Positions 5,286-62,869 of a stretch of 64,000 nt of DNA are shown piece after piece; the stretch's first letter is position 1; each line of letters opens with the position of its first letter. Made by a program: the position numbers and the translations under genes. The notes under the pieces were generated by a model. That model made no database searches. It was not told the DNA's origin and worked only from the letters and a program-made list of their open reading frames with translations. Source of the DNA: Nitrospira sp. CG24E (GTDB lineage: Bacteria > Nitrospirota > Nitrospiria > Nitrospirales > Nitrospiraceae); assembly GCA_002869895.2 (NCBI GenBank), contig NEWP02000011.1, positions 1 through 64,000 on the forward strand, written 5' to 3'.

Positions 5286-5367
5286 TCCTCTGTGCTCGCG
5301 GAACCCCCACGATGAAGCAGTGGTCGTTCGACGCGCGCAGTGGAGGATCACTGGAGACCGCCCTTTC
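5268..5367 (+). repeat. Conserved-core hairpin element, family 1, copy A
   Basis: Left arm 5268-5290 and right arm 5343-5367 are reverse complements apart from one mismatch and two bulged bases. They enclose a 52-nt core beginning TGTGCTCGCGGAAC and ending GTTCGACGCGCGCAGTG. The core matches those at 51476-51526, 51657-51706 and 62794-62845, while the arms differ at every locus. The hlyB stop codon lies in the left arm. No T tract follows. Confidence 0.75.
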
Positions 5368-13001: not shown

Positions 13002-13144
13002 GAAGGCTGTTGAGAAAGTTCGCCAGCGTCGTTCCCTGCCTCCGCCAAAGCACTTCGCGCAGGCAGGTCGCATCCTTCAGACCCTCAACGTACCACAAGG
13101 GTACGCCTCGGGCCTTCACTCGCTGCGGCCTTGCTGGACAGCCT
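13002..13144 (-). repeat. Hairpin element, family 2, copy with internal insertion
   Basis: On the minus strand: outer arm AGGCTGTCCAGCAAGGCCGC, the hallmark GCGTACCC-TTGT-GGTACGTTGAGG, then AACGACGCTGG and the closing arm ending CTCAACAGCCT. The same order is found at 25711-25816 and 55011-55132, but this copy carries about 30 extra bases. It abuts the start of the broken sigma-54 gene and causes a false N-terminal extension of its frame. Confidence 0.7.
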
Positions 13145-13182
13145 GCTAAGTAAATTGAATCACAGCCACACACTTATGTCTA

Positions 13183-24226: not shown

Positions 24227-25557
24227 TACCCAGCGCCACTCAGTCCGTCTTGATTCTCGGTGGAGGCCTTGCCGGCCTGACCGCCGCCTACCGTCTCTCC
24301 CATCTTGGCTATCGAGTGACCATCATCGAAAAGCGCCCTCTGGTCGGAGACCGCATCATCAGTGGATACCATGACGACGCTTCAAGCCCCTTCACCGTCT
24401 TAGGGTGCCATCGCGCAACGCAGGCCCTACTGCATTCGCTGCATCCAGATCATCGGCAGCCCCTAACTAGCGAGATTCCGCTCGAGTTCCAACTCCCTGA
24501 CAATTCCCTCGCTCATTATCCACGCACCAATTTTCCCGCTCCTCTACATTCCTGGGTGAATCTCTTAAAATTTTCCGGAATCCCCTGGAAAGAACGATGG
24601 CGACTGGCATCATGGGTGGAGCAGCTATGGGAAGGCGATGCAGAGCTGCCTGCCGACCTGGAGCACCGCACCGCCGAGGAATGGCTTGCGTCAATCGGGC
24701 AAACCACGCAAACCAGTCGCGTCGTCTGGAATCCTCTCGCCCGATGGCTGACCGGCAATGAACTCTCCACCATGTCAGCCGATGCCTTCGTCACATCGAT
24801 AAGGCCTTTCTTCCTAAAAACTCCCTCAGACAGCCGTATCTCGGTAGTGCAGGACTCACTCAACGCCTGTTTTGTGCAACCGATCACCGACGCTCTGACC
24901 CAGGTCGGCACTACCATTTTAGGCAATTCGGAAGCCACACAGCTCCGATATGAGCGAGAACACATTTCAGGCGTTCTTCTGCGGGATGGTTCTCTACTGC
25001 AAGCGGATTGGTACGTGGCAGCCCTACCCCCCCAACAGCTCACACCCCTACTGCCGGAGCGATGGCTGACCCGCTATGCCTATTTTCAACAACTCGTGGA
25101 ATTACGATCAAGCGACTGCACGATCTTCCACCTCCAGGCTGAACAACCCTGTGCCACCCCTCGCCTTATCCTCTTGAATGACACAGCATTTCACTCGGTG
25201 TTCGCCACAAGGGCAACAGCCGATCGCACGCACTTCTCTCTCATCACGACCGACAATCAATTCTCGCAGGCTCCACCAGACTCAACCCCCAATACCGCAA
25301 TCCCCGATCTACTTAGATCATTACGGCTCCTCGTGCCTGGGAGCAACATCGCATCGACCAGCCGTCGAACCATTCCCAACTCCATCCTCTCACTCAAGCC
25401 CGGAACAAAATTACATCGGCCCATACAACGCAGTCCGATTGCCAACTTGCTGCTGGCTGGTAGTTGGACCGATACAGGATGGCCTCCCAACCTCGAAAGC
25501 GCCATTGTCAGCGGCAACCGCTGCGCCGACGCGATCGCGTCCGGTACGTCAGCTTGA
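24223..25557 (+). CDS. hpnE: Hydroxysqualene dehydroxylase, FAD-dependent
   Basis: 444 residues starting at GTG, overlapping hpnD by 4 bp, so coupled. The N-terminal FAD site is the VLILGGGLAGLTAAYRL motif followed by the acidic IIEKRP segment; the C-terminal end has LLLAGSWTDTGWPPNLESAI, the second flavin-contact motif. HpnE reduces hydroxysqualene to squalene in hopanoid synthesis. The hpnD-hpnE pair strongly supports this over a generic amine oxidase or phytoene desaturase. Confidence 0.87.
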   Translation: MIPSATQSVLILGGGLAGLTAAYRLSHLGYRVTIIEKRPLVGDRIISGYHDDASSPFTVLGCHRATQALLHSLHPDHRQPLTSEIPLEFQLPDNSLAHYPRTNFPAPLHSWVNLLKFSGIPWKERWRLASWVEQLWEGDAELPADLEHRTAEEWLASIGQTTQTSRVVWNPLARWLTGNELSTMSADAFVTSIRPFFLKTPSDSRISVVQDSLNACFVQPITDALTQVGTTILGNSEATQLRYEREHISGVLLRDGSLLQADWYVAALPPQQLTPLLPERWLTRYAYFQQLVELRSSDCTIFHLQAEQPCATPRLILLNDTAFHSVFATRATADRTHFSLITTDNQFSQAPPDSTPNTAIPDLLRSLRLLVPGSNIASTSRRTIPNSILSLKPGTKLHRPIQRSPIANLLLAGSWTDTGWPPNLESAIVSGNRCADAIASGTSA

Positions 25558-25589
25558 CGATGATCCGTTCCGATGGTAGGTCTATCAAT

Positions 25590-26093
25590 ATGAGAACGCT
25601 GTTCGTGAGAAACATTCTTCTGGGAGCACCAACAGCCCGTAGAAAAGCTATGTGGGCACGCGAAAATTTCAATGGCTTCCGCGTGTGGCGTAACAGAGGA
25701 ACACTCCCGCAGGATGCTCAAAAAGACCTCCCAGCAAGGCCGCAGGCGTACCCTCTGGGGTACGTTGAGGACCTGTTCAAGGCGAGAACGAAGCTGGAGG
25801 GCTTTTTCAGCATCCTGATCGTGCTCGCGCTCACTGGATGCGCTGCCAGTCCCTACGAGCGTGGGGGCAATCCGCAAGGACTCAGTCAACGGGATGTGGA
25901 ACGGGATTATATGGAGTGTGAGTACAAGGCAAGACTCGCCAACGGAAATTCCTTCTACAACCAAAGCACACCCTTTCCCTTCGGCCCAGGCCCCCAAAGT
26001 CCCAGCGACCACGCACGAGCACTGCATGGAATTTCGAGCATCAACGCGATGAGGGATACCTGCTTAGCCGCGAAGGGATATAGAGTGGAATAG
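25590..26093 (+). CDS. Lipoprotein whose N-terminus is encoded by a repeat
   Basis: The frame from ATG 25590 gives 167 residues, but only the last 90 or so look like an original protein: a hydrophobic FFSILIVLALTGC signal with lipobox LTGC, then a small secreted domain (LSQRDVERDYMECEYKAR and MRDTCLAAKGYRVE, with two Cys). Family 2 repeat (25711-25816) lies upstream in frame and its closing arm encodes the FFSIL part of the signal. The original start seems lost or replaced. AGG lies about 10 bases before the ATG; start uncertain. Confidence 0.55.
   Translation: MRTLFVRNILLGAPTARRKAMWARENFNGFRVWRNRGTLPQDAQKDLPARPQAYPLGYVEDLFKARTKLEGFFSILIVLALTGCAASPYERGGNPQGLSQRDVERDYMECEYKARLANGNSFYNQSTPFPFGPGPQSPSDHARALHGISSINAMRDTCLAAKGYRVE
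25711..25816 (+). repeat. Hairpin element, family 2, inside a lipoprotein frame
   Basis: AGGATGCTCAAAAAGACCTCC at the left pairs with GGAGGGCTTTTTCAGCATCCT at the right. Conserved interior: CAGCAAGGCCGCAGGC, the hairpin GTACCC-TCTG-GGGTAC, GTTGAGG and GAGAACGAAGC. The same interior occurs at 13002-13144 and 55011-55132 with different outer arms. Confidence 0.8.
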
Positions 26094-48625: not shown

Positions 48626-48692
48626 CCTGGACGGACCAGAGAGCTATCCATTCTGGAGCAAAGAATCGCACACCCTCCTACTTCTCTAACGC

Positions 48693-48712
48693 AGGATACT
48701 CAAAAAACTGCC
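48693..48712 (+). repeat. Half of a family 2 element
   Basis: AGGATACTCAAAAAACTGCC matches the left arm start of family 2 (AGGATGCTCAAAAAG) but lacks the interior. The rest of 48626-48838 shows no gene. Confidence 0.4.
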
Positions 48713-48807
48713 ATCGCACCTGCCCGCCCTGAGTCTTTCACGACACTCTCTTTGTCCAGGGACAACCCTATTCCGATCAGCGCTGCAGCTCCAAAGCGAA
48801 CCCTCGA

Positions 48808-48834
48808 TTCACGTTTCACGCCTTACGTTTCACG
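48808..48834 (+). repeat. TTTCACG-type short repeats
   Basis: ATTCACGTTTCACG followed by CCTTACGTTTCACGG. Same motif as at 15868 and 53120, lying directly at the 3' end of the methyltransferase gene. Confidence 0.5.
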
Positions 48835-48838
48835 GCAC

Positions 48839-51440: not shown

Positions 51441-51560
51441 AAGCAGAGGAAGGAATGGGGCATGATTGATCTTCCACTGCGCGCATCCAACGACGGCTTT
51501 CTGAAGTGGCGCGTTGCACGAGCACAGGAGATCATTAGGCTCCATCCCCTCCTCTGCTCC
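51441..51560 (-). repeat. Conserved-core hairpin element, family 1, copy B
   Basis: Outer arms of about 34 bp (51441-51475 and 51527-51560) are near-perfect reverse complements: AGCAGAGGAAGGAATGGGGC against the reverse of GCTCCATCCCCTCCTCTGCT. The core on the minus strand reads TGTGCTCGTGCAACGCGCC and ends GTTGGATGCGCGCAGT, matching the other family 1 cores. Oriented opposite to copies A and D. Confidence 0.75.
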
Positions 51561-51632: not shown

Positions 51633-51730
51633 AGGACTGGCGGCTATGTTGGTTCTACTGCGGCCGTCGAACGAGCACATTCTCATTGTGCGCGTTCCGG
51701 GAGCAAAGAACCGACATAGCTGTCAGTCCT
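51633..51730 (-). repeat. Conserved-core hairpin element, family 1, copy C
   Basis: Arms AGGACTGGCGGCTATGTTGG (51633) and CCGACATAGCTGTCAGTCCT (to 51730) are reverse complements with few mismatches. Core on the minus strand: TTGCTCCCGGAACGCGCAC and TGCTCGTTCGACGGCCGCAGT. The plsY stop codon (51723-51725) lies in the outer arm. Confidence 0.78.
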
Positions 51731-53006: not shown

Positions 53007-53069
53007 CAGTAACCTATCCCACCCGATTGTTGAAAAACCACTGCGTTGACACGAAAGAGTAGCCCGGCA

Positions 53070-53102
53070 GGATACTCAAAAAGTCCGTTCAGCAAGGCCG
53101 CA
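53070..53102 (+). repeat. Half of a family 2 element
   Basis: AGGATACTCAAAAAGTCCGT is followed by TCAGCAAGGCCGCA, as in the left half of family 2; the right half is missing. Confidence 0.6.
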
Positions 53103-53119
53103 ACTCTTCGACTGATCCT

Positions 53120-53152
53120 CGCTTCACGTTTCACGCTTCACCCTTCACGGTT
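53120..53152 (+). repeat. TTTCACG-type short repeats
   Basis: GCTTCACGTTTCACGCTTCA and CCCTTCACGG directly at the 3' end of kdsD; same motif as at 15868 and 48808. Confidence 0.5.
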
Positions 53153-54957: not shown

Positions 54958-55010
54958 CTTCTCATTTCTTCGCTACACGGGATACTCAAAGTTAACTTTC
55001 AGCTCCTGGT

Positions 55011-55132
55011 GAGATGCTCAAACCAGTTTTTCAGCAAGGCCGCAGGCGAGTCGAAACCGGAAGCGTACCCTCTGGGTACGTTGAGGATTTCGACGAACCG
55101 AGAACGACGCTGAAAGCTGGTTTCAGCATCTC
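55011..55132 (+). repeat. Hairpin element, family 2, between pyrG and kdsA
   Basis: Arms GAGATGCTCAAACCAG and CTGGTTTCAGCATCTC pair, with further pairing TTTTTCAGC/GCTGAAAGC. Interior CAGCAAGGCCGCAGGCGAG, GCGTACCC-TCT-GGGTACGTTGAGG and GAGAACGACGC is conserved with 25711-25816. The pyrG stop is four bases away. Half an older copy (GGATACTCAAAGTTAAC) precedes it at 54979. Confidence 0.8.
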
Positions 55133-55135
55133 ACC

Positions 55136-56737
55136 TCAGTGACCGCATTTGCGCCGCAAAGCCGCTCCTACAAAGCCACTAAATAACGGGTGTGGGTGGT
55201 GTGGCCGCGAATGATACTCCGGATGGAATTGCGTCGCCAGGAACCAGGGATGGTCTTTCAGTTCGATGATCTCGACAAGTCGTCCGTCCGGCGAAAGCCC
55301 GCTCAACACAAATCCCTTGGCGAGTAATGCCTCGCGGTACTGGTTGTTGAACTCGTATCGGTGCCGATGACGTTCCCGTACTTCGCTTACCCCGTACATC
55401 TTTTGGGCCAACGTTCCCTCTCCGAGCATACAGACATAGGACCCCAGCCGCATCGTCCCGCCCTTGTCGCTGACGGACTGTTGATCCGACATCAAATGAA
55501 TGACCGGATAGGGTGAGGCCTCGTCAAACTCGGCGCTGTTTGCGCCGGCCAGCCCTGCGACATTCCGGGCAAATTCGATCGTGGCGCATTGCATACCCAG
55601 ACAGAGGCCGAGAAACGGAATCTGATGTTCCCGTGCGTAACGAATGGCGGCGATTTTTCCTTCGATCCCGCGCGTGCCGAACCCGCCGGGAACCAGGATG
55701 CCATCGACCTCCCGCAGGATACGCTCGGTCCCTTCCCGTTCAATCTCCTCCGACTCAATCCACTGGATGTTCACCCGCGTTTCATGGTCGATGCCGCCAT
55801 GGACCAACGATTCGGAGAGACTCTTGTAACATTCCTTCAAACCCGCATACTTACCGACCAGCGCGATTGAGACTTCGTGCTTGGGATACTTGATCTTCTG
55901 AACCATCGCATCCCATTCGCGCAAGTTCGGCGGACCGGTCTTGAGCTGGAGCAGCCGCACGATCAGCTCGTCCAGCCCTTCCTTTCGAAACACGATCGGC
56001 ACCTCATAGATCGTCTCCACGTCCTTGGCCGTAATGACCGCGTCTTTCTCGACGTTACAAAACATTGCGATCTTGCCTTTGAGTTCTGGCGGCAGATAGC
56101 GATCGGTCCGGCAGAGAAGAATGTGCGGCTGAATACCGATCTCCCGGAGCTTGTTGACAGAGTGCTGTGTCGGTTTAGTCTTCAGCTCACCGGCTGTGCC
56201 GATGTAGGGTACCAGCGTGAGATGGACATAGAGCACGTTCTCACGGCCCACGTCATAGGGCATCTGACGAATCGCTTCGAGGAAGGGTAAGCTCTCGATG
56301 TCGCCAACCGTACCGCCGATCTCCACGATCGTTACGTCCATTCCCTGAGAAATGCGCATGATGCACTGTTTAATCTCGTCCGTAACATGCGGAACCACCT
56401 GCACGGTCCCGCCAAGGTAGTCGCCGCGGCGCTCTTTCGTGATGACCGAATGGTAGATCCTGCCGGTTGTATAGTTATTTTCTTTGGTGAGAGTCAGGGA
56501 GGTATATCGTTCATAATGGCCCAGATCCAGGTCTGTTTCCGCACCGTCGTTCGTTACGTAGACTTCCCCATGCTGATAGGGATTCATCGTGCCGGGATCG
56601 ACGTTGATGTAGGGATCGAGCTTCAGAAAGGTGATCTTGAGGCCGCGGCTCTCCATCAGATTGCCGATCGACGCCGAAGCCAACCCTTTTCCCAGGGATG
56701 AGACGACGCCACCGGTGACGAATATGAACTTGCTCAT
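55136..56737 (-). CDS. pyrG: CTP synthase
   Basis: 533 residues from ATG 56737 (GGAG six bases upstream). N-terminal synthase domain: [41 protein letters not shown]-terminal glutaminase with nucleophile [17 protein letters not shown] and HPEYHSRP. Makes CTP from UTP and glutamine. CTP is used by KdsB next door and by CdsA. Typical placing before kdsA. Confidence 0.95.
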
Positions 56738-62771: not shown

Positions 62772-62869
62772 GAGGGAGCGGCCAGGTGCCCTCCTTGCTC
62801 GCAGAACGCGCACGATAAAGCTATGCTCGTTCGATGCGCGCAGTAGAGGGCAGCCTTGACCGCTCCCTC
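62772..62869 (+). repeat. Conserved-core hairpin element, family 1, copy D
   Basis: Left arm GAGGGAGCGGCCAGGTGCCC (62772) and right arm GGGCAGCCTTGACCGCTCCC (to 62869) are reverse complements; the core TTGCTCGCAGAACGCGCAC ... GCTCGTTCGATGCGCGCAG is the family consensus. It begins nine bases after the bioA stop. Confidence 0.8.

Follow-up and report, generated by a model that had tools for sequence, protein, structure and literature searches.

The locus comprises a lipoprotein-like ORF with a decayed full-length copy of a dispersed hairpin repeat, family 2, lying in frame in its signal peptide (Table 1). The predicted protein reads MRTLFVRNILLGA, then approximately 62 amino acids coded by the MITE, then IVLALTGCAASPYERGGN (IVLALTGC^AASPYERGG), with the MITE-coded residues FFSIL beside the lipobox. 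Orthologues in the relatives G009, G012, G007 and G013 are plain lipoproteins without the insert (e.g. MEKPFARYVVLGAVALMLSGCATSPYERGGN); the orthologue in G015 carries the same MITE insertion, also in frame and open. The copy in our genome has lost the left half of its middle stem through a deletion of approximately 17 nt, which avoids a stop codon that the full middle stem would give in frame, and it has no intact YTAR duplication. Its tail is similar to the 75-nt tail found in 41 other copies.

Family-2 copies and their anatomy

Within the window, the whole stretch of 64,000 nucleotides analysed, family-2 motifs occur in their shared order at 55009-55136 (+), 25709-25820 (+) and 13002-13147 (-), with covariance-model scores of 133.7, 107.0 and 42.1 bits respectively (the model was built from 22 family copies, with the 55009 copy in the training set and the other two outside it). 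The original prediction had counted three full copies here; motif order and model scores agree with this, but the 25711 copy lacks half of its middle stem, and a hairpin interrupts the 13002 copy, which is also missing a piece of one outer arm; its arm 'AGGCTGTCC' is accordingly a deletion product. Among the three half-copies proposed, that at 53070 is genuine, being left over from an element whose complete form occupies the orthologous site in other species, and those at 54979 and 48693 are arm-like fragments only. A TTCACGTTTCACG-type repeat lies beside both the 48693 and 53070 'half-copies' (48802-48835 and 53117-53150, 85% identical) and is present in the orthologous spacers too.

Table 1 Features in the window and recurrent inserts in family-2 copies.
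Feature	Position	Strand	Remarks
Lipoprotein-like ORF, MITE in frame in signal peptide	25590-26093	+	ATG 25590 in ORF 25464-26093
Decayed full-length family-2 MITE	25633-25816	-	tail 25633-25710, hairpin 25711-25816
Family-2 copy, nested 33-bp hairpin, outer arm partly deleted	13002-13147	+ (sense)	right end abuts CTAA
33-bp hairpin CCTGCCTGCGCGAAGTGCTTTGGCGGAGGCAGG inserted at CGA^GAACG of 13002 copy	13035-13067	-	
Family-2 hairpin, pyrG / DAHP/KDO8P-synthase-family gene spacer	55009-55136	-	occupied in 20/20 species examined
Family-2 remnant ('half-copy' 53070)	53064-53103	-	orthologous position complete in several relatives, empty in others
Arm-like fragment beside 55009 copy	54979-55003	-	
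Degenerate arm fragment only (CGCAGGATACTCAAAAAACTG)	48691-48712	-	
~50-nt C-rich tip-loop insert	L208:15023-15196, L232:3001-3174, L218:3001-3171, L191 and L198 pyrG-kdsA copies		
Other ~70-nt tip-loop insert (GCGCACGGTGCGACGAATAAGGAGCACC...), recurrent	L256:3001-3195, L206:8754-8947, L236:2996-3190		
Family 1 cores GAACGCGCAC...GTGCTCGTTCGA, long complementary arms	5289-5350, 51467-51532, 51654-51709, 62792-62847		

The core unit is a quasi-palindrome of approximately 126 nt, usually followed by a tail of approximately 75 nt ending in TTTTTCCGCAGCCTG, so the element extends further than first noted, with the tail on the left (+) side of many copies. Read in the sense direction, its layout is YTAR-CAGGATGCTGAAAAAG-(hairpin, ~126 nt)-(~75-nt tail)-TTTTTCCGCAGCCTG-YTAR, and a shorter tail-less form exists in which YTAR lies directly at the hairpin end (L132:4194 and L049:1874). 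Full-length copies are bounded by the terminal inverted repeats CAGGATGCTGAAAAA ... TTTTTCCGCAGCCTG, as in MITEs, and a dispersed element of 126-201 nt with no transposase gene falls within the size range of prokaryotic MITEs (below approximately 600 bp).

The outer stem of the hairpin consists of GCAGGATGCTCAAAAAG.CC.TCCAGC and its partner, and leads to a conserved asymmetric internal loop (AAGGCCGCA opposite GAGAACGAA). The middle stem is hypervariable between subfamilies, its complementarity being kept in all types (TGAAG.CC/GG.CTGAA, TCGAAACC/GGATTTCGA, AAAGCACC/GGATGCTTT, GAACGCACC/GGATGCGTTC, AGAGGC/GCCTCT and others), and encloses a conserved junction, CCGGAGG/TTGAGG; the tip is GCGTACCC/GGGTACGT (GTACCC/GGGTAC). 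A C.C mismatch is present in the outer stem of 213/231 copies and lies, in the sense direction, between the true terminal repeat (CTGAAAAAG) and its internal mirror (GCTCAAAAAG). The hairpin alignment contains invariant unpaired residues, and 15 pairs show double changes among 22 paralogues (RNAalifold), which bears out the predicted combination of conserved interior, complementary arms and covariation. The outer arms are complementary as predicted and their variants differ on both sides at once, but they are mostly not copy-specific, as most copies carry GCAGGATGCTCAAAAAG / CTTTTTCAGCATCCTG.

Family 2 is present in numbers far above chance. A DNA search returned 46 matches in the whole assembly, and the covariance model 123 matches at E<=1 in the 3.45-Mb genome (own-genome statistics cover 72 stretches and the window), 87 of which were good, near-complete and non-overlapping and were extracted; the interior motif is therefore dispersed genome-wide, as had been proposed. 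With the same model, each of 24 relatives in the genus has from 38 to at least 84 copies, and other families of the order have 0 to 76, scoring being capped at 84 candidates. Matches in a pattern scan across named genomes fell nearly all in Nitrospira. Literature searches, which did not cover ISfinder, found no prior description of the element, and this does not by itself prove novelty.

Target duplication and insertion at gene ends

The hairpin ends alone gave no target duplication above chance; the ~75-nt tail emerged from the comparison with empty sites. In sister species, empty sites carry a single YTAR and occupied sites one YTAR at each end, which indicates that the element is mobile and duplicates a 4-bp target. 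Thus, the empty site CCGTTAG-CCGATGAAACC (CCGTTAG-CCGATG) in L320 corresponds to CCGCTAG...CTAG-CCGATGAAACC around the copy at L132:6648, and ACTCCTAA-GCTATTTC in L330 to ACTCTTAG...CTAG-ACTATTTC around a copy in our own genome (L217:3001). The locus of the 53070 half-copy, at a SIS/CBS gene (kpsF-like), is empty in L183, L185 and L186 as compared with L187 and L195, the empty site reading GTCTAACGG (GTCTAA-CGGAAT), and the comparison of L089:2746 with L126 gives a further case, as do the short forms L132:4194 and L049:1874. Among the 55 recognised tails, 41 are 78-80 nt long with the flanking tetramer included. Left and right tetramers are identical in 16/55 cases, against 11.2 in shuffled sets (maximum 19), a difference that is not significant because CTAG dominates at both ends and many copies are old. 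The argument for a duplication is therefore based on the individual empty sites, some of which could be precise deletions.

An exact YTAR is found at only 111/272 left junctions. On the gene-sense strand the left end often directly follows YTAG/YTAA, and an in-frame gene stop, counted where the frame is open over 90 codons or more, lies exactly at the left junction in 103 of the 272 copies (TAG 78, TAA 20, TGA 5); the sense-left end of the 55009-55136 hairpin adjoins the TGA stop of pyrG. The TAG or TAA within YTAR makes gene ends natural targets, and since the duplication restores the stop codon, insertion at a gene end should be tolerated. We rejected the idea that the element supplies the stop codon, as at the loci followed the element-free orthologue already has a stop there; the stop is thus host-supplied and restored by the duplication.

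Constraint on the hairpin and nested inserts

In the spacer between pyrG, which encodes CTP synthase (Pfam), and its neighbour of the DAHP/KDO8P-synthase family, here called kdsA, the hairpin is at the orthologous place in all 20 species examined. Among the 16 alignable orthologues, 95.6% of cells are paired, against 31-43% when the partner is slid, and 16 pairs show double changes, with 71 such cells against 26 in shuffles. The hairpin is strongly constrained. Elsewhere occupancy varies: in 15 copies comparable between our genome and G023 (covered over approximately 1.04 of approximately 3.6 Mb), 6 are common, 7 are absent or remnant in G023 and 2 are ambiguous. The copies thus include old ones as well as ones that were gained recently or lost.

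Selection on the fold probably accounts for part of this constraint, acting either on an RNA in the 3' UTR or spacer or on a hairpin needed for mobility. The pairs at pyrG-kdsA switch in blocks with few G-U intermediates (61-70: CG 8, GC 8; 48-83: GC 9, AU 7) and in G023 the left arm is old and the right arm new, for which reasons conversion between copies probably helps to maintain the fold alongside selection. The same block switches and mixed arms would be expected if the covariation reflected arm-templated correction (quasi-palindrome repair or template switching) or block conversion, and not selection. However, arm-templated repair would erase both the C.C mismatch and the asymmetric internal loop, which are kept, and we consider this explanation less likely than not, though far from remote. 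It bears on the fold alone and is in keeping with family 2 being a MITE.

The internal loop is also the site of a second repeat. The 33-bp hairpin CCTGCCTGCGCGAAGCGCTTCGGCGNAGGCAGG occurs 39 times in a survey of 32 genomes of the genus and 246 sampled from the whole phylum, always in Nitrospiraceae, 11 of the occurrences being outside the genus but within the family. All 39 lie at CGA^GAACG, or a near match to it, in the family-2 internal loop and have the same orientation, and their carriers belong to six or more middle-stem subtypes. The pyrG-kdsA copies of G009 and G010 are distinguished by a clean 33-bp gain in the latter and by two substitutions. The 9-mer target site lies outside family-2 elements in 82 of its 341 occurrences in the sequence examined, all without the insert. 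The hairpin is thus a tiny module with single-nucleotide site specificity, for which we know of no mechanism; fold-guided site-specific insertion and short-tract conversion are possible alternatives. That it is a second ultra-small element, inserted in a structure-guided and site-specific manner into an extruded cruciform or single-stranded loop, is a tentative idea that we think rather unlikely; if true, it would call for an unknown enzyme and for a fold, in DNA or RNA, that really forms in vivo. Two further inserts recur in the tip loop (Table 1), and the C-rich one, with its GAGCTG...CAGCTC stem, is found in differing family-2 subtypes.

Origin of family 2 and relation to known elements

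A scan for paired terminal repeats around a long ORF yielded a 1.38-kb element in G023 (L331, 1376 bp), of which intact relatives were retrieved by protein search: L335 in G015 (1319 bp, TIR CAGGCTGCGGAAAAAC, CTAG/CTAG flanks), L340 in G008 (1318 bp, TIR CAGGCTGCGGAAAAAC, CTAG/TTAG flanks) and L334 (1326 bp, CAGGCTGTTGAAAAAC). L335 and L340 have TTTTTCCGCAGCCTG, the MITE right end, as their terminal repeat, and the ends and YTAR flanks of family 2 match those of L335, L340, L334 and L331. The transposases of L335, L340 and L334 have DUF772 and DDE_Tnp_1 domains and pass the NCBIfam IS5_4 model (280.6, 267.4 and 236.5 respectively; cut-off 140), and that of L331 is below the cut-offs for IS5_4 and IS1182. 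We had considered IS701 as the partner because YTAR is the IS701 target, and dropped it since the transposase models indicate IS5. No relation was found between the MITE interior and the IS5-family elements; as the two are alike only at their ends, it is from these that we infer mobilisation in trans. Any match to the IS was seen in 9/41 genomes, with intact copies rare, and the IS5-like transposase copy of our own genome is broken by internal stops (G000:C35:5497-6624, L332), so the likely motor may be dead there.

The presence in relatives of IS5-family elements with the same terminal repeats and YTAR flanks makes an IS5-mobilised MITE the best reading, and we consider it likely, with a probability of approximately 0.87, that family 2 is a Nitrospiraceae MITE moved in trans by a DDE transposase of the IS5 family. 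Such a transposase would act on the family-2 terminal repeats, each insertion duplicating a 4-bp YTAR target, often at a gene stop codon. Old copies remain in orthologous places throughout the genus, degenerate into half-copies or disappear, and the sequence of the hairpin drifts with its pairing kept, probably by selection on the fold and by conversion between copies. Ordinary MITEs usually lack such extensive compensatory change, which counts against this reading. The original prediction had set its proposal against fixed-sequence MITEs with ordinary terminal repeats and target duplications; family 2 does have ordinary terminal repeats and YTAR duplications, but its sequence is not fixed and its stems covary.

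The many hairpin copies outside genes, the conserved stem mismatch and one IS200-type gene approximately 510 bp from a family-2 copy (C28) would fit a REP/BIME-like palindrome moved by a RAYT or another Y1 (HUH) transposase, enzymes of the kind that had been suggested for family 2 together with IS200/IS605. However, a search for Y1_Tnp in our genome and 40 relatives gave no correlation with family-2 copies, and the domain is absent from G001, G004, G009, G011 and G018, complete or nearly complete genomes with approximately 84 or more copies each, which removes both RAYT and IS200/IS605. Moreover, the unit measures 126-201 nt, not 20-40, and family 2 shares DDE-type terminal repeats and YTAR flanks with IS5-family elements, so that we consider this origin most improbable. 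Derivation from IS200/IS605 was dropped on the same grounds, namely YTAR duplication, DDE-type TIRs and the lack of Y1 correlation. Integron attC sites, considered from anatomy only, were rejected since the ends are not attC-like and agree with the repeats of the IS5 family. A non-mobile family of structured regulatory RNAs or terminators, in which each copy keeps its position through its function, would account for the full occupancy and compensatory changes at pyrG-kdsA, for the invariant unpaired residues and for the placement of copies right after stop codons. It is nevertheless improbable in view of the clean presence/absence polymorphism with YTAR flanks, also seen in the comparison with G023, and of the lack of any Rfam match in the window at the gathering threshold. 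Intrinsic terminators were likewise rejected, as a pattern scan gave no match in the 55009 copy and a single weak one in the 25711 copy. Exaptation of some copies of the MITE is possible.

The original prediction had proposed that family 2 arose by a mechanism common to family 1, and this is not supported. The 94 family 1 cores recovered in the sequence examined are unrelated to family 2, and their arms recur as subfamilies (GGGAGCGGCCAGGTGCCC, GGGTAGCCTGGTCGTCCTCC, GATGGAGCCTGATGATCT) and are not unique to each copy; on brief inspection no YTAR/IS5 ends were seen in family 1. Nothing was seen to link the two beyond both being long hairpins. In L184 a family-2 element has had its interior replaced by a family 1 copy.

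Members of Nitrospira, whose genomes contain many undescribed repeats, have a key role in nitrite oxidation and in complete ammonia oxidation. Family 2 clearly exemplifies an element with the stop codon in its target motif, which may explain why more than 100 copies are tolerated. With one locus readable across 20 species, it is also among the cleaner datasets on selection on the fold of MITE hairpins. Annotation of Nitrospira genomes should allow for a possible MITE origin of gene ends and of lipoprotein signal peptides.

We regard family 2 as a MITE of the IS5 type whose fold is unusually well preserved. ERIC, Correia (NEMIS) and RUP elements are imperfect palindromes of approximately 100-200 bp, in high copy number, genus-wide and mainly intergenic. 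Family 2 resembles them in all these respects but differs in sequence, ends and target, and in its marked abutment on stop codons and block covariation. With REP/RAYT systems it shares dispersed hairpins, and it differs from them in length, ends and target and in lacking a Y1 transposase. The MITE class is reviewed in PMC10969869, where the Rickettsia palindromic elements are also described. As with these, a palindromic element lies in frame in a protein gene (the copy at 25633-25816), and the insertion is kept in the ORF in both our genome and G015; in contrast, this is the one clear family-2 case followed, it is kept open by an internal deletion and most family-2 copies lie outside genes, and we claim no sequence relation. 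For IS5 of E. coli, duplication of a 4-bp target of the CTAA/CTAG kind has been reported (PMC11677980; PMC10379815), and the IS5 family (NCBIfam NF033581) has in common with family 2 the CTAG/CTAA-type (YTAR) target and short terminal inverted repeats, the partners of family 2 being autonomous elements of approximately 1.3 kb with a DUF772 and DDE_Tnp_1 transposase. Unlike the IS5 family and IS-derived MITEs, family 2 has as its interior a unique covarying hairpin of approximately 126 nt, and its copies are far more numerous than the transposases.
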